From Gillisia sp. Hel_I_86 (GTDB taxonomy: Bacteria > Bacteroidota > Bacteroidia > Flavobacteriales > Flavobacteriaceae), in assembly GCF_007827275.1 (NCBI RefSeq), contig NZ_VISE01000001.1, positions 3,596,001 through 3,660,000 on the forward strand: a stretch of 64,000 nucleotides of DNA. The letters run 5' to 3'. Below the pieces are notes generated by a model. It did not search any database and had not been told where the DNA came from. It saw only the letters and a list, made by a program, of their open reading frames with translations. A program made the translations under genes and the position numbers. Positions 26,416 to 37,634 of the stretch are shown piece by piece (within the stretch, counting starts at the first letter, position 1; each line of letters opens with the position of its first letter).

Positions 26416-28422
26416 ATGAAACCAACACCCACGGAGTTTACAACAATAAAATACCCAGATACCGAGCTTTCAGAGACCACTTTATTAAAGTTATATCGTG
26501 GCATGCTTAAGCCCAGGCTCATAGAAGAGAAAATGCTTATTCTTTTAAGGCAGGGAAGAATTTCCAAATGGTTTAGTGGGATTGGCCAAGAAGCTATTTC
26601 CATAGGGATTACCATGGCAATGCAAGAAGATGAGTATATCTTGCCAATGCATAGAAATTTAGGTGTTTTTACCGCTCGAGAAATTCCACTTTATAGATTG
26701 TTCTCACAATGGCAGGGAAAAGCGAATGGCTTTACAAAAGGCAGGGACCGAAGTTTTCATTTTGGAACCCAGGAATTCAAGATCGTAGGGATGATTTCTC
26801 ATCTAGGCCCTCAATTAGGGGTGGCCGATGGAATTGCCTTGGCGCACAAACTCAAAAAAGAGAAAAAAATAACTGCTGTTTTTACTGGAGAAGGGGGAAC
26901 AAGTGAGGGAGATTTTCATGAAGCTTTAAATATAGCTTCCGTATGGGATCTACCGGTATTATTTTGTGTGGAAAATAACGGCTACGGACTTTCTACTCCA
27001 ACCACAGAACAATACAGGTGCAAGAATATCATGGATCGGGGAATTGGTTATGGTATGGAAGCACATCAAATAGATGGGAATAATATTTTAGAAGTCTATA
27101 CCAAGGTTTCAGAAATTGCTGAAAGCCTTCGTGAAAACCCAAGACCTGTATTGTTGGAATTTATCACGTTTAGAATGAGAGGTCACGAGGAAGCCAGTGG
27201 TACCAAATATGTTCCGGAAGAGCTGCTGAATGAGTGGGCTGCGAAGGATCCAATATTAAATTTCAAAGAATTGCTTCAGGAAAAAAATATCCTTACTGAA
27301 GAGGTCGATAACGACTATATAAAAGAAATTAAAGCTGAAATTGATGAAAATCTACAGCTTGCATTTGACGAAGAAGTAATTGTCTCTTCTGAAAGTGAAG
27401 AATTAAATGATGTATATGAGAAGTTTGAATATCAGCATTTTGAAGAAAATAAAGAAGTTGAAACAATTCGGTTTATAGATGCCATAGCCGAAGCTTTAAA
27501 ACAATCTATGCAGCGGCATGAGGATCTTGTTTTAATGGGGCAAGATATCGCAGATTATGGTGGGGTTTTTAAAATAACGGAGAACAGTCTTGCTGATTTT
27601 GGAAAAGACCGGGTTCGAAATACCCCTATTTGTGAGTCGGGAATAGTGGCTACTGCCATGGGACTTTCCATTAAAGGAATAAAGTCCATGGTGGAGATGC
27701 AATTTGCAGATTTTGTGAGTTCTGGTTTTAACCCAATTGTAAATTACCTTGCCAAGGCTCATTATAGATGGAACCAGCCGGCAGATGTGGTTATTAGGAT
27801 GCCTTGCGGGGCAGGCGTAGGAGCAGGGCCCTTCCATAGTCAGACCAATGAAGCTTGGTTTACCAAAACACCGGGATTAAAAGTAGTATATCCCGCTTTT
27901 CCAAAAGATGCAAAAGGATTATTGAATACTGCTTTCACCGATCCCAATCCAGTTTTGTTTTTTGAACATAAAGCGCTGTATAGAAGTATTCGTCAAGAAG
28001 TGCCTACTAATTACTACACTATCCCATTCGGGAAGGCAGCTTTCCTTCAGGAAGGGCATGAGGTTACTATAGTTACTTATGGGGCCGCGGTGCACTGGGC
28101 AATGGAAGCCTTATTGGAATTCCCAGATCTTAGTGTGGACCTTATAGATCTTAGAACCTTACAACCAATGGATATAGAAACTGTTTTCAATTCTGTTAAA
28201 AAGACAGGAAGAGTCCTTGTAATAAATGAGGATTCCATCTTCGGTAGTATTGCATCAGACATTGCTGCACAAATAGCAGAAGAATGTTTTGAATATTTAG
28301 ATGCGCCCATAATGCGATTGGGAAGCATGGAAACCCCTATACCTTTTACACAAAACCTAGAAAATCAATACCTTCCCAAAAATCGTATTAATGAAAAATT
28401 AAAGGAATTAATGGCGTATTAG
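26416..28422 (+). CDS. 2-oxoacid dehydrogenase E1, alpha and beta subunits fused
   Basis: 668 aa. Residues 20-320 are an E1-alpha (GEGGTSEGDFHEALNIAS followed by NNGYGLS is the thiamine-diphosphate motif). From about 350 an E1-beta follows (GQDIADYGGVFKITENSL; RNTPICESGIVATAMGLS; MPCGAGVGAGPFHSQTNEAW). The two subunits are separate proteins in many bacteria but fused in this family. It most likely decarboxylates branched-chain 2-oxoacids, giving the iso-fatty-acid precursors common in Flavobacteriaceae. E2 and E3 are not in the window. It sits alone behind its own promoter box. Confidence 0.92.
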   Translation: MKPTPTEFTTIKYPDTELSETTLLKLYRGMLKPRLIEEKMLILLRQGRISKWFSGIGQEAISIGITMAMQEDEYILPMHRNLGVFTAREIPLYRLFSQWQGKANGFTKGRDRSFHFGTQEFKIVGMISHLGPQLGVADGIALAHKLKKEKKITAVFTGEGGTSEGDFHEALNIASVWDLPVLFCVENNGYGLSTPTTEQYRCKNIMDRGIGYGMEAHQIDGNNILEVYTKVSEIAESLRENPRPVLLEFITFRMRGHEEASGTKYVPEELLNEWAAKDPILNFKELLQEKNILTEEVDNDYIKEIKAEIDENLQLAFDEEVIVSSESEELNDVYEKFEYQHFEENKEVETIRFIDAIAEALKQSMQRHEDLVLMGQDIADYGGVFKITENSLADFGKDRVRNTPICESGIVATAMGLSIKGIKSMVEMQFADFVSSGFNPIVNYLAKAHYRWNQPADVVIRMPCGAGVGAGPFHSQTNEAWFTKTPGLKVVYPAFPKDAKGLLNTAFTDPNPVLFFEHKALYRSIRQEVPTNYYTIPFGKAAFLQEGHEVTIVTYGAAVHWAMEALLEFPDLSVDLIDLRTLQPMDIETVFNSVKKTGRVLVINEDSIFGSIASDIAAQIAEECFEYLDAPIMRLGSMETPIPFTQNLENQYLPKNRINEKLKELMAY

Positions 28423-29987: not shown

Positions 29988-30009
29988 GACAACTCACAAA
30001 TTCATATTA

Positions 30010-30037
30010 AATCCCGGGGAAAGCCCGGGATTTTTTT
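30010..30037 (+). terminator. Rho-independent terminator after the OmpA-family gene
   Basis: AATCCCGGG / CCCGGGATT stem with a short loop, followed by TTTTTTT. Confidence 0.92.
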
Positions 30038-30061: not shown

Positions 30062-31186
30062 GTGAAAAAGAAATCCATTGGGATTGTTGGTGGCGGTCTC
30101 TCAGGACTCGTTGCCGCCATCCATCTTTCTAAAAACAATATACCGGTTACGGTATTCGAAAAAAACAGGTATCCTAATCATAAGGTTTGTGGAGAATATG
30201 TGTCCCGTGAAATACTTCCTTATTTAGAACAGCTTGATATCCATATTAAAGAACTCGAGCCGGCTTTAATCAATAGGTTGCAATACAGCTCGGTTAAAGG
30301 AAAAATAGTAAGTGCCAAATTGCCTTTAGGTGGTTTAGGGATTTCCCGCTATGCCTTAGATGAATTTTTACATCAAAAAGCTATGGCATCTGGAGTAAAA
30401 TTTATACAAGCCTTAGTTATCGATGTAGATTTTATTGAAGATGAGTTTGAAATAATTACAAATCAGAAGGAATCTTTTAAATTTAATATAGTTCTGGGAG
30501 CATATGGAAAGCGGTCTTTATTGGATAAAAAATTGGATCGGGAATTTATAGATCAAAAGTCTGGCTGGCTGGCTATTAAATGCCACTATAAAAAAGATGA
30601 TTTCCCAGATAATTTGGTGATGCTCCATAATTTTAAAGGTGGTTATTGCGGATTATCCAAAACTGAGAGCGGAGCTATTAATGCATGCTATTTGACTTCT
30701 TATTCGAGTTTTAAACGATATAAGGATTCCCTCGATTTTAAAAACAAGGTCTTAATGCAAAACCCACATTTGAGATCTTTTTTCCAACAAGCTACGCCCT
30801 TATTTGAAAATGACCTTAGTATCGCACAAATCTCTTTTGAAAAGAAATTGAGTATTCAAAACCATATCCTGATGGTAGGAGATGCAGCTGGGTTAATTCA
30901 CCCTTTATCTGGCAACGGTATGGCAATGGCTATTCACAGTGCCAAGATTGCTTCCGAAGCTATCATTAATTATTACAAAAATGATGGAAGCTCAAGAGAA
31001 GCAATGGAGAAGGAATATCAGACAAACTGGAATGTCCAGTTTAGTTCCAGGTTACGGATGGGCAGACTATTACAAAACGTTTTGTTAAGTCCAGGACTTT
31101 CTCGATTTGTACAAAGAATTATAAGTACTTTCCCCTCATTACTACCAAAGATCATTTCAAGAACCCATGGAAAACCAATAGTATGA
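30062..31186 (+). CDS. FAD-dependent oxidoreductase (geranylgeranyl-reductase/monooxygenase family) of the type III PKS cluster
   Basis: 374 aa, GTG start. Rossmann motif GIVGGGLSGLVAAIHLSK followed by VFEKNRYPNHKVCGEY, where the Cys-Gly-Glu is typical of the GGR/tryptophan-halogenase-like branch. The second FAD motif is MVGDAAGLIHPLSGNGMAMA. It likely hydroxylates or reduces the polyketide-derived ring or chain. In streptomycete srs clusters a flavoprotein hydroxylase (SrsC) turns methylated alkylresorcinols into quinones, and this gene sits in the analogous place. It overlaps the methyltransferase by 4 bp (ATGA). Confidence 0.85.
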   Translation: MKKKSIGIVGGGLSGLVAAIHLSKNNIPVTVFEKNRYPNHKVCGEYVSREILPYLEQLDIHIKELEPALINRLQYSSVKGKIVSAKLPLGGLGISRYALDEFLHQKAMASGVKFIQALVIDVDFIEDEFEIITNQKESFKFNIVLGAYGKRSLLDKKLDREFIDQKSGWLAIKCHYKKDDFPDNLVMLHNFKGGYCGLSKTESGAINACYLTSYSSFKRYKDSLDFKNKVLMQNPHLRSFFQQATPLFENDLSIAQISFEKKLSIQNHILMVGDAAGLIHPLSGNGMAMAIHSAKIASEAIINYYKNDGSSREAMEKEYQTNWNVQFSSRLRMGRLLQNVLLSPGLSRFVQRIISTFPSLLPKIISRTHGKPIV

Positions 31187-31896
31187 TTGCTATAAATACC
31201 TCTAAGCGCAGTGAAACAATCGAGATCATGGATGATTTCGAATTAAAGGGGGGAGACTTGGAACAAACCCTGAGCGATCTTGAAAAGATAAATAAATGGT
31301 TGGGAGGAAATACAATTACTTTAGAGGGAATTCAATTTCTTCTGAAAAATACCCCTGAGAAAACGACTATTAGAATAGCCGATATTGGTTGTGGTAGTGG
31401 TGCAGTACTTCGGGAGATTGCCAATTGGGGAAGAAAGCAAAAATTTGATCTCGAACTTATGGGGATAGATGCCAATCCATACACTATTGAAATTGCTCAA
31501 AGGAGATCAGATTATTATCCTGAAATAAAGTTTGAAGCCTTAAATATTTTCAGCGAGGCATATAAAAAGCAAAAATATGATATTGTGCTTTGTACCTTGA
31601 CGCTCCATCATTTTAAAAATGAGGAGATTTTGGAACTGCTTAATATCTTTAAGGATCAGTCCAGTATTGGAATTGTAATTAATGATCTTCAGCGGAGTAA
31701 AACCGCCTATGTATTATTTCAAGCTTTCTGTAAAATGTTCATCAATAACGAAATTGCAAGAAAAGATGGATTAACTTCTATTCTGCGCGGTTTTAAAAAG
31801 AATGATCTAAAAAATTTAGCTAAAAAAATACCAACTCAAAAACATAGTATTAAATGGAAATGGGCCTTCCGCTACCGTTGGATCTTAAAGAAATAA
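31183..31896 (+). CDS. Class I SAM methyltransferase of the type III PKS cluster
   Basis: 237 aa. Motif I ADIGCGSGAVLREIA (D67-x-G69-C-G-S-G73), the acidic end of strand 2 at GIDANPYTIEIA, and post-motif LCTLTLHHF. The LTLHHF sequence is usual in small-molecule C- or O-methyltransferases. It is translationally coupled to the FAD gene and 6 bp before the type III PKS. It would methylate the phenolic or pyrone product, by analogy with SrsB. Confidence 0.87.
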   Translation: MIAINTSKRSETIEIMDDFELKGGDLEQTLSDLEKINKWLGGNTITLEGIQFLLKNTPEKTTIRIADIGCGSGAVLREIANWGRKQKFDLELMGIDANPYTIEIAQRRSDYYPEIKFEALNIFSEAYKKQKYDIVLCTLTLHHFKNEEILELLNIFKDQSSIGIVINDLQRSKTAYVLFQAFCKMFINNEIARKDGLTSILRGFKKNDLKNLAKKIPTQKHSIKWKWAFRYRWILKK

Positions 31897-31902
31897 CCCC
31901 TT

Positions 31903-32955
31903 ATGAGTGTAAGAATTATTAGTGTTCAAAAAGAACTTCCAAAATATTTTAGAGAAACTTCAGATATTATTCCGTTGGTGGAAGAGTGGTTGGATGAAAA
32001 AGATGAGCGTTTTAAAAGAAAGATCACCAAAATATTTGAAGGGGCGGGGGTGGATAAGCGATATTCCATAATGGCACCGGAAGAAGTTTTCACAAAGACT
32101 TCTTTTGAAGATAAAAACAATATCTATGTTCGGGAGGTCAAGAAATTAGGAAAGAATGTGTTAAAAGCTGCCTTAGAAGAGAATCACTGGGCACCGGAAT
32201 CTTTGGATTTTATTATAACCGTGAGTTGTACGGGGATCATGATCCCTTCTCTAGATGCGTATTTGATTAACGAACTAGAACTAAATCAAAACATCACACG
32301 ACTTCCGGTTACAGAAATGGGTTGTGCTGCAGGAATCTCAGGAATGATCTACGCCCATAAATTTTTACAAGCCAATCCAGGAAAAAGGGCGGCCATTATT
32401 GCCGTAGAAAGTCCAACAGCTACTTTTCAGTTGGAAGATTTTAGTATGGCGAATATGGTGAGTGCAGCCATTTTTGGGGATGGTGCGGCCTGCGTGTTGC
32501 TTTCTTCTGAAGAAGATGCTAAAGGCCCCAAAATTATTGGGGATGAAATGTATCATTTTTTTGATGCCACCCATCTCATGGGCTTTCATTTAGCCAACTC
32601 CGGTTTGCTAATGATCTTGGATGAGCGTGTTCCCGAAACGATTTCCAAACATTTTCCTGATATTATTTATCCTTTTCTTGAGAAGAATGGAAGTTCTATA
32701 GACAAAGTGGAGCATCTTATTTTTCATCCTGGCGGGAGAAAGATAGTACAAACAGTGTCTAATCTTTTTGGTACCTTAGGGAAGAATATTGATGATACCC
32801 GAGAAGTACTTCGATTATATGGGAATATGAGCAGTGTAACCGTACTGTATGTTTTGGAAAGATTTCTTCAGAAAGAAATTCCAAAAGGAGAGCAGGGTTT
32901 ACTTTTAAGTTTTGGTCCCGGGTTTTCAGCACAACGAATTTTAATAGAATGGTAG
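31903..32955 (+). CDS. Type III polyketide synthase (chalcone/alkylresorcinol synthase family)
   Basis: 350 aa thiolase-fold enzyme with the full Cys-His-Asn triad: C141 in EMGCAAGISG, H275 in LIFHPGGRKI, and N308 in LYGNMSSVTVLYVLE. The gatekeeper/GFGPG-like loop appears as LSFGPGFSAQ near the C terminus. Family enzymes load an acyl-CoA or acyl-ACP starter, extend it with malonyl-CoA and cyclise the chain to resorcinols or pyrones. With a private acyl-building set downstream, a long-chain acyl starter is likely. It overlaps the next gene by 7 bp. Confidence 0.93.
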   Translation: MSVRIISVQKELPKYFRETSDIIPLVEEWLDEKDERFKRKITKIFEGAGVDKRYSIMAPEEVFTKTSFEDKNNIYVREVKKLGKNVLKAALEENHWAPESLDFIITVSCTGIMIPSLDAYLINELELNQNITRLPVTEMGCAAGISGMIYAHKFLQANPGKRAAIIAVESPTATFQLEDFSMANMVSAAIFGDGAACVLLSSEEDAKGPKIIGDEMYHFFDATHLMGFHLANSGLLMILDERVPETISKHFPDIIYPFLEKNGSSIDKVEHLIFHPGGRKIVQTVSNLFGTLGKNIDDTREVLRLYGNMSSVTVLYVLERFLQKEIPKGEQGLLLSFGPGFSAQRILIEW

Positions 32956-33743
32956 CAGAATTTAAAGATCTCAATTATTGGGCGCTGATCCTTGGAGGCA
33001 GTAGCGGACTAGGGCTTGCAACAGCCAGAAAACTTGCCAAACACGGCATGAATATTATAATTATACATAGGGATCGAAGGTCTGAAATCCCCGATATCGA
33101 AGAAGCTTTTGAAGATATCAGAGAATCTGGAGTTCGGCTAGAGAGTTTTAATATAGACGCCGTACAGAAAGATAAACGGGAAGATCTTATCAAGGAGATC
33201 ACCAATATTCTAGGAGAGAAAGGTAAAATAAGGACGTTGGTGCACAGTATTGCCAAAGGAAATTTAAAGCCCATGAGCGGGAAAGGGCCTTTTTTGGAAA
33301 ATATAGACTTCCAAATCACTATAGATGCGATGGCCTTAAGTTTATACGATTGGACCGAAGCGGTGTATCAGGCAGGATTATTTGCCAAAGATGCCCGGGT
33401 TGTTTCATTTACCAGTGAAGGAAATAAAAAAGCTTGGGAAAACTACGCTGCAGTATCTGCAGCAAAAGTGGTTCTGGAAGCCATAACTAGAAGTATGGCG
33501 CTTGAATTTGCTCGTTATGGGATTCGTGCGAACTGTATACAGGCGGGAGTTACGGTTACCAGATCTTTCCAAATGATCCCCGGAAATGAAACTTTGCGCA
33601 TGCATGCCCTAAAACACAATCCTTTTAAACGTTTAACTGTTCCAAACGATGTTGCCAATGTGGTATATCTTTTAAGTAAAGATGAAGCCAGTTGGATCAC
33701 AGGGACTATAATTCCCGTGAATGGCGGGGAACATCTCAAATAA
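32949..33743 (+). CDS. FabI-like enoyl-ACP reductase / SDR of the cluster
   Basis: 264 aa SDR. NAD(P)-binding LILGGSSGLGLATARKLA. The active-site pair is Y166-x6-K173 (NYAAVSAAK), the FabI spacing rather than the Y-x3-K of classical FabG. VHSIAKG corresponds to the FabI 'VHSI' loop. It therefore probably performs the last reduction of a fatty-acyl cycle, though some related proteins are described simply as SDRs. The start overlaps the PKS stop (ATGGTAG). A repeat-filled gap follows before the dehydratase. Confidence 0.85.
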   Translation: MVAEFKDLNYWALILGGSSGLGLATARKLAKHGMNIIIIHRDRRSEIPDIEEAFEDIRESGVRLESFNIDAVQKDKREDLIKEITNILGEKGKIRTLVHSIAKGNLKPMSGKGPFLENIDFQITIDAMALSLYDWTEAVYQAGLFAKDARVVSFTSEGNKKAWENYAAVSAAKVVLEAITRSMALEFARYGIRANCIQAGVTVTRSFQMIPGNETLRMHALKHNPFKRLTVPNDVANVVYLLSKDEASWITGTIIPVNGGEHLK

Positions 33744-33785
33744 TTAGGTAGAGCTGTATTTCATCCAGCATGAACTGAAACATAT

Positions 33786-33856
33786 CGTCACCCTGAACTT
33801 GTTTCAGGGTCTCATCCTGATTTTTAGTGAGATGCTGAAACAAGTTCAGCATGACG
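33786..33856. repeat. Two facing copies of a 29-bp dispersed repeat
   Basis: CGTCACCCTGAACTTG / TTTCAGGGTCTCA on the + strand is followed by its inverted relative TGAGATGCTGAAACAAG / TTCAGCATGACG. Each copy is itself a hairpin (CCTGAA...TTCAGG) and the pair forms a larger palindrome. The same unit occurs at 3319-3347, 34469-34500, 40701-40770, 53596-53664 and 63974-64000. Confidence 0.75.
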
Positions 33857-33971
33857 TAAAACCTGAATGTTGCTACTTAAAATTAATAACTGTACAAAAT
33901 CGGAAAATCAAAAAATAATTTCTCAAACGATTTTTTTTAAATAAACATTAACCCAAATTTTTATTTCTCAG

Positions 33972-34421
33972 GTGAACTATAATTCGATCATTTCTGCACT
34001 ACCTTATTCAAAGCCATTTTTATTTGTTGATGAAATTTTAGAGGTCAATGCTGAAGCTTGTAAAGGAACTTATACATTTCTTGAAGACGCTTATTTTTAT
34101 AAAGGGCATTTTAAAGATCACCCTGTAACGCCAGGAGTGATCTTAACCGAGTGTATGTCACAAATTGGGGTGGTATGTCTAGGAATTTATCTTCTGAATA
34201 GTTTAGTAGATACTAAAAGTTTAGCTGCGGAAGAAATTGAAATCGCGTTGAGTTCTACTCAAATAGATTTCTTTTTACCGATTTATCCAGGGGAACAAGT
34301 GAGAGTGGTCTCAAAAAAAGAATATTTCAGGTTCCATAAATTGAAATGTGCTGTTGAAATGTTCAATAGTAATAACGAATTGGTATGTCGAGGAATGATT
34401 GCGGGGATGATGAAGACATAA
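33972..34421 (+). CDS. FabZ-like 3-hydroxyacyl-ACP dehydratase of the cluster
   Basis: 149 aa hot-dog fold, GTG start. LPYSKPFLFVDEI, then YKGHFKDHPVTPGVILTECMSQIGV, matches the FabZ motif with catalytic H46 and E60. It would dehydrate a 3-hydroxyacyl chain on the cluster's own ACP. FabZ with Glu (not Asp) fits simple dehydration without isomerisation. It is separated from the reductase by 228 bp of repeat DNA but points the same way. Confidence 0.88.
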   Translation: MNYNSIISALPYSKPFLFVDEILEVNAEACKGTYTFLEDAYFYKGHFKDHPVTPGVILTECMSQIGVVCLGIYLLNSLVDTKSLAAEEIEIALSSTQIDFFLPIYPGEQVRVVSKKEYFRFHKLKCAVEMFNSNNELVCRGMIAGMMKT

Positions 34422-34666
34422 AATTCAAAGTTCAAGATTTAAGGTTCAAGGTTATTGAAAAAGGTAAAGTGAGATCCTGAAATAAATTCAGGATGACGAG
34501 TTTTTGATTAGAATGTTATTAAAAATAATTCCACCTCTTATCGCTATGGGTTTCAAATGTCACATCGAGCGTAGTCGAGATGTTTTCATGACCCTTCGAC
34601 TGATCTCGAGGATTCAAAGTTTAAGGTTCAATATTATGAAGAATTCAAATTTTTGGAATAATTAAA
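34422..34666. repeat. Repeat-rich gap inside the polyketide cluster
   Basis: No gene was seen. Contains the dispersed 29-bp unit (GAGATCCTGAAATAAATTC / AGGATGACGAG at 34471-34500). A second short palindromic family is also present (CATCGAGCGTAGTCGAGATG at about 34563), and 'TTCAAAGTTTAAGGTTCAA' at about 34615 nearly repeats text at about 34425. Confidence 0.65.
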
Positions 34667-35941
34667 ATGGAAAAACGAGTTGTCATTACAGGATTGGGAA
34701 TTTGTGCTCCCAATGGGGTGAGTATCCCTAAATTTAAGGAAGCACTTCGTGCAGGTACGAGCGGGATCACTTTTCATCCTCAACTTAAAGAACTTAATTT
34801 TAGTTGCCAGATAGGAGGGAAGCCAGAAATTTCTGAAGCCAAGCTAGCTGAATATTTTACGCCATTACAATTACGAGGATTAAATAGCAGCGGAATAGTT
34901 TACGGTGTGATCTCTGGAACGGATGCCTGGAAAGATGCCGGACTTCAAATCTCTCATAAGGATTCACCAGATTGGGCTAGTGGGATCATTTTTGGCACTG
35001 GGATTTTAGGAGTAGATAAATTTAGGGAAGCCATACATTTAATAGATGCAGGAAAAACGAGGCGCTTAGGAAGTACCAGTGTGATCCAGACCATGGCGAG
35101 TGGGATAAGTGCGTATTTAGGAGGTATTTTAGGTTGTGGAAATCAGGTGACCACCAACTCTTCTGCATGTACCACTGGAACAGAGGCACTTTTAATGGGC
35201 TATGAGCGTATTAAAGCCGGAAAAGCAACCAGAATGCTAGTGGGAAGCTGTAGTGATTACGGACCTTATGTATGGGGCGGCTTCGATGCCATGCGGATTC
35301 TTCCCGGAAATTTCAATGAAAATCCAGAGGCCGCATCTAAACCCATGAGTGCCGATGCCTCGGGCTTTGTTCCAGGAAGCGGAGCCGGTTCTTTGGTTTT
35401 GGAAGATCTGGAGGCTGCATTGGAAAGGGGGGCGAAAATATATGCAGAAGTCTTGGGAGGAGAAGTAAACAGTGGCGGACAACGAGGAGCAGGAAGTATG
35501 ACGGCTGCAAATAACGAAGCGGTACAACGTTGCATAACGGGAGCTTTAAACAATTCAAAAATATCAGCATCAGAAATAGACTCGATAAATGGGCATTTAA
35601 CAGCTACGAGCAAGGATTCCATAGAAATCGCGAATTGGGCAGAAGCATTAAATCTGAAGAGCGTTGAGAGTTTTCCTTATATCAACTCTCTTAAGGGAAT
35701 GACAGGGCATTGCCTAAGTGCTTCCGGCAGTATGGAATGTGTAGCAAGTGTGCTGGAAATAGCAAAAGGTTTTGTATTTCCAAACATCAACTGCGAAGAA
35801 ATACATCCAGAGATCCTCGAGCTGATTCCTGAAGAGCGTATTCCCCGAAAAACAATTGAAAAACCGATTAACATAATAGCAAAAGCAAGTTTTGGTTTTG
35901 GGGATGTGAATGCGGTGGCGATATTTAAGAAATATGTTTAA
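34667..35941 (+). CDS. Beta-ketoacyl-ACP synthase (FabF-like) of the cluster
   Basis: 424 aa KAS-II-type enzyme. Active residues: C168 in NSSACTTGTEAL, H310 in INGHLTATSKDSIE, and K343/H348 in SLKGMTGHCLSASG. The complete Cys-His-His triad implies a working condensing enzyme rather than a chain-length-factor partner. The first His motif reads NGHLTAT instead of the usual NAHGTGT. It would extend acyl chains on the cluster ACP for the type III PKS. The ACP gene follows. Confidence 0.9.
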   Translation: MEKRVVITGLGICAPNGVSIPKFKEALRAGTSGITFHPQLKELNFSCQIGGKPEISEAKLAEYFTPLQLRGLNSSGIVYGVISGTDAWKDAGLQISHKDSPDWASGIIFGTGILGVDKFREAIHLIDAGKTRRLGSTSVIQTMASGISAYLGGILGCGNQVTTNSSACTTGTEALLMGYERIKAGKATRMLVGSCSDYGPYVWGGFDAMRILPGNFNENPEAASKPMSADASGFVPGSGAGSLVLEDLEAALERGAKIYAEVLGGEVNSGGQRGAGSMTAANNEAVQRCITGALNNSKISASEIDSINGHLTATSKDSIEIANWAEALNLKSVESFPYINSLKGMTGHCLSASGSMECVASVLEIAKGFVFPNINCEEIHPEILELIPEERIPRKTIEKPINIIAKASFGFGDVNAVAIFKKYV

Positions 35942-35996
35942 TTCAGAATTTAATATTTTTAACTTTTCACTTCAAATAGATTGTTATATTAGCCTC

Positions 35997-36248
35997 ATGA
36001 CAGACAACACTATTTTAGAAAAAATAAAAATCATTGTTACTCCGTATGTGCAACGCCAAGAAGGCCTGGATGATTTTGATGAGAAAACTGATTTTCTGAC
36101 AGACCTCGAAATAAATTCAGCAAACCTAGTAGATGTGATCTTGGATGTAGAAGACGAATTTAACATAGAAATAGATAACGCTTCTATGGAAGGAATGCTA
36201 ACGGCTGGCGATGCAAAGAGAATAATCTTAACCAAAATGGAGAATTGA
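35997..36248 (+). CDS. Acyl carrier protein of the cluster
   Basis: 83 aa counted from the ATG at 35997. A longer frame from 35910 overlaps the KAS gene and adds no ACP sequence. The four-helix ACP pattern is present, with the phosphopantetheine serine expected at S41 (EINSANLVDVILDVEDEF). The usual Asp-Ser-Leu reads Asn-Ser-Ala, so the motif is divergent. It is coupled by overlap to a phosphopantetheinyl transferase that could have evolved to modify it. Confidence 0.88.
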   Translation: MTDNTILEKIKIIVTPYVQRQEGLDDFDEKTDFLTDLEINSANLVDVILDVEDEFNIEIDNASMEGMLTAGDAKRIILTKMEN

Positions 36249-36826
36249 TTGGGAATGATATCATAGATCTTGAAATTCCGATCTCTCCAAATTGGAACAC
36301 TACCCGTTATTTAAATAAATTATTTACCTCATCAGAACAAACTGCAATTTTTGATTCCGAAGAGCCTGAAATTTGGCTTCAATTATTTTGGTCTTTAAAA
36401 GAAGCGGCTTATAAGGCACATCAACGCCAATTTAATTTACCCAGAAAGTATAATCCTCTTGATTTTATATGCGAAATAATTTCAGAAGAAAAAGAAGCGG
36501 TTCAGGGAATTTTAAGAATAAAAGGCCTTATTTATTTCTCTACTTCAACAATCACTTCAACCTATATCCACAGTACAGCTATGACTGGTTCAGAAATAAA
36601 TCGGGAAGCATGCATCAAAATTCTTGACGGGGAAAGCGCTCTTAAAGACAAATTATTTGCCGAATATTCCGTACTTTTAAAAGAGCCAAAAACCAATTTC
36701 AGAATTCAAAAGAATAAAAACAAATTCCCCGTTTTATATTTGAAGAACACGAAATTGGAGCAAAACTTTTCTCTCTCCCATCACGGAAAATTTGCAGCTT
36801 TTGCCATTGCGTTAAGGATCTCCTAA
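36245..36826 (+). CDS. 4'-phosphopantetheinyl transferase (Sfp-like) of the cluster
   Basis: 193 aa, TTG start inside the ACP stop region (4-bp overlap). IGNDIIDLE holds the first metal-binding Asp (D5), and the signature FWSLKEAAYKAHQ (W49, K52, E53, K57) is the PPTase W-x-x-K-E-A-x-x-K motif. It attaches the phosphopantetheine arm to an ACP. Coupling to the unusual ACP suggests a private activating enzyme. It is the last gene of the cluster. Confidence 0.9.
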   Translation: MIGNDIIDLEIPISPNWNTTRYLNKLFTSSEQTAIFDSEEPEIWLQLFWSLKEAAYKAHQRQFNLPRKYNPLDFICEIISEEKEAVQGILRIKGLIYFSTSTITSTYIHSTAMTGSEINREACIKILDGESALKDKLFAEYSVLLKEPKTNFRIQKNKNKFPVLYLKNTKLEQNFSLSHHGKFAAFAIALRIS

Positions 36827-36908: not shown

Positions 36909-37634
36909 ATGAAAACAGTAGATAAAATGGAAGTTTTACACAGCCAAACAGCCGAATTTATTTTACAAGGAGAGATAGGGAAATTTTTGAAATTGATCCC
37001 TGATACTTTTATTATTAAGGGAAGCGAACAAGAAAATGGATTTAATCAAGGATATGCTATTAGACATATTAATAGAAAAGACATTCTTTTAATAGATGTT
37101 GTAGAAAAAGAAACCCTTAAAGCTGTTAAGCAACTTGTGGCAGATGGATATACTATTAAAGGGATTATTCTAAGCAATTCTTCGGTTTATAAAAATGCGT
37201 ATGCCGATCTAAAAACAGTTTCTGAAGACGCTGGAGGTGCCCCAATTTATGCGCATCCAAGAAATTCAATAAACGATGCTTCTTACAAACCAAAGGACAT
37301 CACCGCCAAGCAAGAAATCGTAAAACATTTTGGTTTAAAAATCTATGATCTCCCAGGGAATGGGGGAGGTTCTATCCTGATCTATTCAGATATCAATGAT
37401 GGGATGTTATTTACTGGTGAAGATGCGATAGGTTCCAATTATAATATTGAAGAAAACACTTTTTCAAGACCTACCATGGACAGTAAAAATTCTGAATTTG
37501 GACTTGCTGAAAGTTGGGGTGCTTTTGAAGAACCCTTCAGTTACCTATTTCCTTTACATGGAAAGCCGGGGTTTAATTTAGAAGCTGGACAACAAACAGA
37601 TATTTTAAATAAACTTAGCAGAATTCAGTCTTAG
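36909..37634 (+). CDS. MBL-fold-like protein with degenerate metal site, function unknown
   Basis: 241 aa, cytoplasmic. The order of motifs recalls metallo-beta-lactamase-fold hydrolases: ILLIDVVEKETL, then IKGIILSNSSVYKNAYADL where HxHxDH is expected, GMLFTGEDAIGSN where 'LFTGDAL' is expected, and a late PLHGKPGF. The histidine ligands of the first motif are absent (SNSSVYKN), so it should not bind two metals in the usual way. The resemblance is by eye and tentative. It is 82 bp after the polyketide cluster and may or may not belong to it. Confidence 0.55.
   Translation: MKTVDKMEVLHSQTAEFILQGEIGKFLKLIPDTFIIKGSEQENGFNQGYAIRHINRKDILLIDVVEKETLKAVKQLVADGYTIKGIILSNSSVYKNAYADLKTVSEDAGGAPIYAHPRNSINDASYKPKDITAKQEIVKHFGLKIYDLPGNGGGSILIYSDINDGMLFTGEDAIGSNYNIEENTFSRPTMDSKNSEFGLAESWGAFEEPFSYLFPLHGKPGFNLEAGQQTDILNKLSRIQS

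Follow-up and report, generated by a model that had tools for sequence, protein, structure and literature searches.

Eight adjacent genes at positions 30062-36826 of a 64,000-nucleotide window of the Gillisia sp. Hel_I_86 genome (positions 3596001-3660000 of a single-contig genome of 4.245 Mb) probably act together as a single unit in the biosynthesis of a phenolic lipid or a quinone-type lipid, in which an acyl chain bound to an acyl carrier protein (ACP) serves as the starter of a type III polyketide synthase (PKS) and the resulting resorcinol or pyrone ring is then tailored. In the proposed pathway, a ketosynthase (KS), a FabZ-like dehydratase (DH) and an enoyl-reductase-like (ER) short-chain dehydrogenase/reductase (SDR) would build or extend the acyl chain on a private ACP, with ketoreductase (KR) activity and malonyl-ACP borrowed from primary metabolism. 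A phosphopantetheinyl transferase (PPTase) would activate this ACP. The PKS would accept the acyl-ACP as starter, add malonyl units and close a resorcinol or pyrone ring. A methyltransferase (MT) would then methylate the ring and a flavoprotein would hydroxylate it, yielding a hydroquinone or quinone if the ring is a resorcinol. The direction of the relay (starter supply versus later extension), the acyl transfer from ACP to PKS, the ring type, the order of tailoring and the product are what we infer.

All eight open reading frames (ORFs) lie on the plus strand and each exceeds the gathering score of a Pfam family, in agreement with the preliminary description of this DNA, which had reported eight genes in one direction. 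The first encodes a flavin adenine dinucleotide (FAD)-dependent oxidoreductase (30062-31186; GTG start, 374 amino acids). It is followed by a class I S-adenosylmethionine MT (31183-31896; 237 amino acids), the type III PKS (31903-32955; 350 amino acids), the SDR reductase (32949-33743; 264 amino acids), the DH (33972-34421; 149 amino acids), a FabF-like KS (34667-35941; 424 amino acids), the ACP (35997-36248; 83 amino acids, with the ATG at 35997 as start and the listed ORF beginning at 35910) and the PPTase (36245-36826; TTG start, 193 amino acids). The FAD and MT genes overlap by 4 bases, MT and PKS lie 6 bases apart, PKS and reductase overlap by 7 bases, KS and ACP are 55 bases apart, and ACP and PPTase overlap by 4 bases. 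The genes had been called mostly overlapping or closely spaced, which applies to five of the seven junctions but not to the gaps between ER and DH (33744-33971; 228 bp) and between DH and KS (34422-34666; 245 bp).

We searched 199 Flavobacteriaceae genomes, almost one per genus, for the PKS (E ≤1e-30). It was found in 64 genomes, one of which (G072; 34% identity) holds a distant PKS, leaving 63 orthologs including that of the window. Seven Gillisia records share 91-95% identity with the window PKS, and two further records 83% and 81%. We fetched 63 loci, i.e. those of the 62 other orthologs and that of G072 (L095), and tabulated their genes by tblastn (E ≤1e-4); ORF-based counts of DH and ER (55 each) differ slightly from the tblastn counts used here. 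The 62 orthologous loci contained FAD in 62, MT in 62, KS in 58, DH in 58, ER in 54 and PPTase in 18 cases (19 if G066, whose locus ends at a contig end, is included). Both FAD and MT adjoin the PKS in all 62, which is the gene content of srs-, pkq- and hid-like operons. The order FAD-MT-PKS-ER-DH-KS-ACP(-PPT) recurs in dozens of genomes, and hence the arrangement exceeds chance.

Across whole genomes, KS scores were bimodal, with 62 genomes at or above 487 bits and the best other match at 184 bits. A KS ortholog occurred in 62 of the 63 genomes with the PKS and in none of the 136 others. These co-occurrence statistics ignore kinship and p-values overstate the evidence because the genomes are related; stronger evidence comes from the unlinked and rearranged loci than from the counts. 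Four loci lacked a KS (G190, G144, G066 and G138). In G190 and G144, DH-KS-ACP was found elsewhere in the genome (L105, L106), away from the PKS, and both parts were kept. The contig of G066 ends within the locus, and the remainder lies on another contig (L107).

The cluster also occurs outside the family. Among 53 named loci, a few of them truncated at contig ends and disproportionately many from Gillisia and its close relatives, PKS, MT, DH and KS were present in all 53, ACP in 52, FAD in 50, and ER and PPTase in 44 each. They include Chitinophaga ginsengisegetis, Sphingobacterium, Halpernia and Dyadobacter. Chitinophaga has the cluster in the same order, as does Halpernia, with extra DNA before DH and no PPTase found at the locus, and Sphingobacterium, without ER. 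In two Dyadobacter loci, MT-PKS and ER-DH-KS-ACP-PPT form divergent neighbouring blocks. Flavobacterium sp. HSC-61S13 and Sphingobacterium were paired in the KS tree with 100/100 support, and their proteins are 80% (PKS), 81% (KS) and 77% (DH) identical, which suggests transfer between families as a unit.

Besides gene content and conserved association, intact active sites were observed directly. The catalytic residues listed in the preliminary description were retained in the orthologs, where each row is an ORF from the 63 fetched loci and one locus yields two PKS fragments. C141, H275 and N308 of the PKS were each present in 64 of 65 rows, C168/H310/H348 of the KS in 58 of 58, H46/E60 of the FabZ-like protein in 55 of 55, and Y166/K173 of the reductase in 54 of 55, the remaining row being gapped there. 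In L094 (genome G150), a frameshift or an assembly error divides the PKS frame into two ORFs.

None of the eight proteins reaches an NCBIfam cut-off among the matches listed, and each is therefore a divergent member of its family. Two Chal_sti_synt domains (70.5 and 65.4 bits; threshold 27) and the Cys-His-Asn triad identify the type III PKS. Its AlphaFold model (pLDDT 86.6) matched the folds of CylI and PKS11 best (TM ~0.9); the nearest solved structure is Mycobacterium tuberculosis PKS11 by sequence and CylI by fold, the latter at 24-25% identity in the structural match. The PDB entries of CylI are described as complexes with a beta-ketoacyl-SNAC (N-acetylcysteamine thioester) substrate (8yst) and with a resorcinol product. 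Assignment of the PKS as the dihydroxyphenylacetyl-CoA synthase DpgA was rejected (162.6 bits against an NCBIfam equivalog cut-off of 425). The genome holds one such PKS, other matches being at 23-28% identity.

The FAD protein has a group A flavin monooxygenase fold and is a probable ring hydroxylase. It scored 101.6 bits with the geranylgeranyl reductase superfamily (cut-off 158.8) and 90.7 with the QhpG monooxygenase (cut-off 240). Its model (pLDDT 88.0) retrieved flavin halogenases first, then a Cytophaga flavoprotein, with 3-hydroxybenzoate 6-hydroxylase at rank 11. WxWxIP is the flavin halogenase motif. It was found in none of the 64 related ORFs, and a halogenase was rejected although halogenases top the fold list. 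Aromatic hydroxylation is the protein's most likely role; it may have halogenase or reductase activity instead. The MT (Pfam Methyltransf_31/25; PRK06202 138.6 bits, cut-off 243) is a soluble class I enzyme without a membrane-like stretch in its sequence. SrsB, by comparison, is a membrane ICMT-type enzyme. For the MT gene, the analogy with srs clusters drawn earlier is thus a functional one.

The reductase had been described as FabI-like. It is an SDR whose Y166-x6-K173 has the spacing of enoyl-ACP reductases, and Y-x6-K rather than the ketoreductase Y-x3-K was found in 54 of 54 related ORFs. Its best NCBIfam model, FabL, was below cut-off (137 bits against 328), and ketoreductase models also matched below cut-off (3-oxoacyl-ACP reductase 106 against 298); the protein is a putative enoyl-ACP reductase. 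The DH matched the FabA-like Pfam family at 48.3 bits. In the ACP, INSANLVD replaces the DSL at the attachment serine, and the motif INS[AS][NH]L[VI]D occurred in 54 of 54 ACP ORFs of related loci. For the 62 loci this number of ACP ORFs is a minimum, because in some of them an antisense ORF was called where the ACP lies. The FabF-linked ACP of the genome carries ADSLDTVE instead. An ACP-like protein of 82 amino acids elsewhere in the Gillisia genome (L109 6113-6361; ~4.225 Mb) has LGADILD at the expected attachment-serine site. The PPTase (Pfam ACPS 38.6 bits) is an optional member: the cluster's own PPTase, listed in the preliminary description as part of the set, is present here, but it is found in only 18 of the 62 orthologous loci, and a second PPTase lies at ~1.74 Mb of the genome.

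The cluster KS is 34-35% identical to the genome's FabF. In the KS tree, in which the outgroup branches are long, the cassette KSs form one clade apart from that FabF and from the flexirubin-like KS. A housekeeping role of the cluster KS and ACP in type II fatty acid synthesis (FAS-II) was rejected, as a usual-type ACP-FabF pair lies elsewhere (contig C1, 1469228-1470701) and the cluster KS belongs to a separate clade. A separate flexirubin/aryl-polyene-like locus (L108), named by inspection and with KS matches below cut-off, lies at ~3.23 Mb.

The ER-DH-KS-ACP(-PPTase) genes were also found as a cassette without this PKS. In a sample of 395 genomes of the phylum (type III PKS at E ≤1e-30; KS ortholog at E ≤1e-75), 165 had a type III PKS, of which 33 were orthologs of the window PKS, separated from the rest by a jump in E-value from 9e-157 to 4.5e-62. 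The KS ortholog occurred in 38 genomes, i.e. the same 33 and five others. Two of the cassette loci, L214 (8776-16544) and L215 (8155-15792), belong to two non-flavobacterial Bacteroidota families and carry ER-DH-KS-PPT divergent from darB-darG-darH, with an ACP called in L215 only. Their dar genes scored above the NCBIfam cut-offs (darB 634.8/614.7 bits against 550, darG 198/191 and darH 454/443), and the cassette may also feed dialkylresorcinol synthesis. L216 has ER-DH-KS-ACP. ER is missing from L217 and L218, which have DH-KS-ACP, and an adjacent PPTase was seen in none of the three. Their neighbours are a GNAT-family gene (Pfam 25.6 over 20.7 in L216; assigned by resemblance for L217 and L218) and a glycosyltransferase gene of family 2 (scanned in L216 and L217), and a BioF/serine-palmitoyltransferase-like enzyme, below all its cut-offs, is encoded ~4 kb away in L216. 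These cassettes possibly serve a lipid pathway. The ACP motifs are INSANLVD in L215, INSMHVID in L216 and LDSFYVID in L217 and L218.

The converse, a PKS core without the cassette, was found in a set of 19 loci, made up of L095 and 18 others from the phylum sample whose PKSs are distant; 17 of these could be evaluated, since L202 and L204 yielded no row for the PKS. Homologs of MT and FAD adjoin the PKS in three of the 17 (L205, L206 with a weak FAD match of 43 bits, and L208). L205 (6386-10208) and L208 (5806-9694) have the order UbiA-PKS-MT-FAD (UbiA Pfam 66.5 and 79.7 bits); no cassette gene was found within these 16-kb loci and no KS ortholog in their genomes. Identity of the distant sets to the window proteins is 38-42% for FAD, 29-31% for MT and ~30% for PKS. 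Both sets possibly represent a prenylated polyketide quinone pathway. Since two PKS-MT-FAD sets without cassette carry UbiA, the tail source seems to vary: the PKS-MT-FAD ring-making core would be shared, with the lipid tail supplied by a prenyltransferase or by the cassette. ArsB and ArsC were not among the best 60 PDB matches listed for a distant PKS.

Several observations weigh against a single unit in which the cassette supplies the starter. No recognised KR, malonyltransferase or KAS III was found among the eight proteins (Pfam, NCBIfam). Without a recognised KR, the cassette is not self-sufficient and its own enzymes cannot finish a reducing cycle; should the SDR actually be a ketoreductase, the set would lack an enoyl reductase instead. 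ER orthologs were absent from eight of the 63 PKS genomes, so that the reductase, listed earlier as a member of the set, belongs to it in 55; L063 retains a reductase fragment of 61 amino acids. G138 has FAD-MT-PKS-ER and no KS ortholog in its genome, and no DH was found beside the PKS in L080 or in L084 (G138), DH being sought at these loci rather than genome-wide. Conversely, G031 has an ER ortholog and no PKS or KS ortholog; among ten window genes tested in 19 kb, only omp, ER and the 241-amino-acid gene were found there (L211 8353-10768), and the locus, with ER between the other two, is apparently a deletion scar of the cluster. Five of the 38 KS genomes carry the cassette away from any type III PKS and have only a distant PKS of this type elsewhere. 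A FAD homolog was not found in the two Dyadobacter loci, each covering 15 kb. Finally, the correlation of KS and PKS pairwise distances (0.89) is not clearly higher than the correlations with a flanking control gene (0.77-0.82).

The preliminary description had proposed that discrete FAS-II-like enzymes on a private ACP make the PKS starter. The FAS-like genes and the PKS do behave as a unit, as seen from their co-occurrence, their retention when unlinked and the presence of a related cassette beside darB. The set falls short of a complete fatty acid synthase (FAS), lacking the recognised activities named above, and the transfer from ACP to PKS is predicted. Most likely, the genes form one pathway. 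The mechanism proposed earlier is the best supported, with the cassette read as an incomplete, portable acyl-ACP module.

Other arrangements of the same enzymes were considered. The PKS might use ordinary long-chain acyl-CoA or acyl-ACP, as in the hid and planctomycete operons, with the cassette producing another acyl group, to be joined to the finished ring as an ester or second alkyl chain. The cassette of L214 and L215 sits with dar genes, whose dialkylresorcinol products carry two chains, and passages of PMC10896814 report that alkylresorcinols were formed by planctomycete PKSs in a host that lacks a cassette of this kind. We consider this unlikely, given that no acyltransferase family matched among the window's cluster proteins (Pfam) and that the PKS and reductase genes overlap in the window. 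It is distinctly unlikely that the cassette hands a beta-ketoacyl-ACP rather than a saturated acyl-ACP to the PKS, the last KS turn remaining unreduced for want of an own KR. This would fit the lack of a recognised KR in the cluster and the beta-ketoacyl-SNAC bound by CylI, the closest fold, but a role for DH and ER presupposes ketoreduction, and the FabG of primary metabolism should accept many different ACPs.

Two independent pathways may also lie side by side, with the FAS-like genes contributing to membrane lipids or other lipids and having no connection with the PKS. Related cassettes lie next to GNAT-like and glycosyltransferase genes, in L216 also near a serine-palmitoyltransferase-like gene, so that the cassette is not bound to a type III PKS by nature. 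Yet independence is highly improbable in view of the co-occurrence of KS and PKS, the retention of both when unlinked, and a gene order conserved across families. A broader reading, which we regard as speculative and rather unlikely in its entirety, is that ER-DH-KS-ACP(-PPTase), which has a KS clade of its own and in many cases an ACP of the INSxxLVD type, is a portable Bacteroidota tail cassette that serves a type III PKS here, DarB elsewhere and possibly a serine-palmitoyltransferase-like enzyme. The flavobacterial product would then be an alkyl and not a prenyl benzoquinone, a possible alternative membrane redox carrier, and other Bacteroidota would prenylate a related core via UbiA.

Parts of the cluster resemble described systems, for which the cited papers are represented by passages of their text. 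As in the window, the hid (hierridin), planctomycete and pkq/srs operons combine a type III PKS with neighbouring methyltransferase and oxidoreductase genes, for ring formation, methylation and oxidation (PMC10896814, PMC8086630, PMC9927152). Such operons have been tied to alkylresorcinols or polyketide quinones (PMC10896814, PMC9927152), the latter in Streptomyces and Mycobacterium (PMC9927152). The planctomycete PKSs form alkylresorcinols, and co-expression of MT and oxidoreductase led to a single, probably carbon-bound methylation (PMC10896814). A residue test for the ring type of such PKSs is mentioned in PMC9927152. In contrast, the window combines FAD-MT-PKS with a KS-DH-ER-ACP cassette, which the passages of these papers do not mention, and the likeness is one of gene content and described roles. 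Substrates bound to an ACP can be accepted by type III PKSs, among them CylI of the cyl cluster (cylindrocyclophanes), the nearest PKS fold, which takes its chain from an ACP-based pathway (PMC8086630). Unlike in the window cluster, the cyl chain is elongated by type I PKSs (PMC8086630).

The related ER-DH-KS-(ACP)-PPT cassette beside darB-darG-darH in L214 and L215 likens the cluster to dar/flexirubin clusters, from which it differs in having a type III PKS where those have DarB (background on darA/darB: PMC3992019, PMC9606717). Assignment as a dar/flexirubin cluster was rejected, as no DarB family match was among those listed for the PKS or KS. The window shares with the ars operon of Azotobacter, in principle, private fatty-acid machinery beside a type III PKS. 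In that operon, reported by Miyanaga in 2008, a type I FAS is said to feed type III PKSs. The window differs in its discrete FabF, FabZ, SDR and ACP proteins, in having one PKS rather than two, and in its additional MT and FAD genes. An ars-type FAS/PKS operon was rejected, as Pfam and NCBIfam revealed only these discrete proteins and no multidomain type I FAS beside the PKS.

Flavobacterial type III PKS clusters have already been counted as a class in surveys. They are given as 9% of flavobacterial biosynthetic gene clusters (BGCs) in a passage of PMC7440613, and type III PKS as 10.74% of BGCs in PMC10734526; one type III PKS cluster was reported in every Aquimarina genome studied, with 'likely novel type III polyketides' (PMC9323603). 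Koreenceine is made by a type II system in Pseudomonas (PMC6498172). In agreement with the earlier statement that no described Bacteroidota product could be named, we found neither a described product nor any mention of a link between cassette and PKS in titles, abstract openings and passages of the open-access literature, which is weak negative evidence.

The surroundings of the cluster add some further features. A terminator-like stem-loop (30009-30033, plus strand; 10 pairs and a T-run, by consensus match only) lies 3' of the upstream OmpA-family gene and sets the FAD gene apart from it. Within the ER-DH gap, a 29-base inverted repeat (33786-33856) contains a 20-mer with 195 sites in the genome (≤2 mismatches; reversed control 0). 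As this is a genome-wide repeat family rather than a conserved part of the cluster, the ER-DH and DH-KS gaps look like repeat insertions; in Christiangramia the same genes are nearly contiguous. Some copies of the repeat are spaced ~203 bases apart near 463-464 kb. Further upstream, a gene for a 2-oxoacid dehydrogenase E1-like protein of 668 amino acids (26416-28422; named by inspection) has a homolog upstream in at least 44 of the 63 fetched loci, possibly as mere chromosomal context. Downstream, a gene for 241 amino acids (36909-37634), without a Pfam or NCBIfam match, is retained next to the cluster at loci of Gillisia, Christiangramia, Gramella, Salegentibacter and Salinimicrobium. The viral_contigs scan revealed no relative.

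About one-third of the sampled Flavobacteriaceae (63 of 199) keep this cluster in near-constant order. Such constancy points to a lipid of importance, not to an antibiotic specific to single strains. If the hand-off from the private ACP to the PKS is true, the cluster would be a discrete FAS-II counterpart of the Azotobacter relay from type I FAS to type III PKS, and it would offer a simple genetic test of the role of this lipid in a large, mostly marine group of bacteria.

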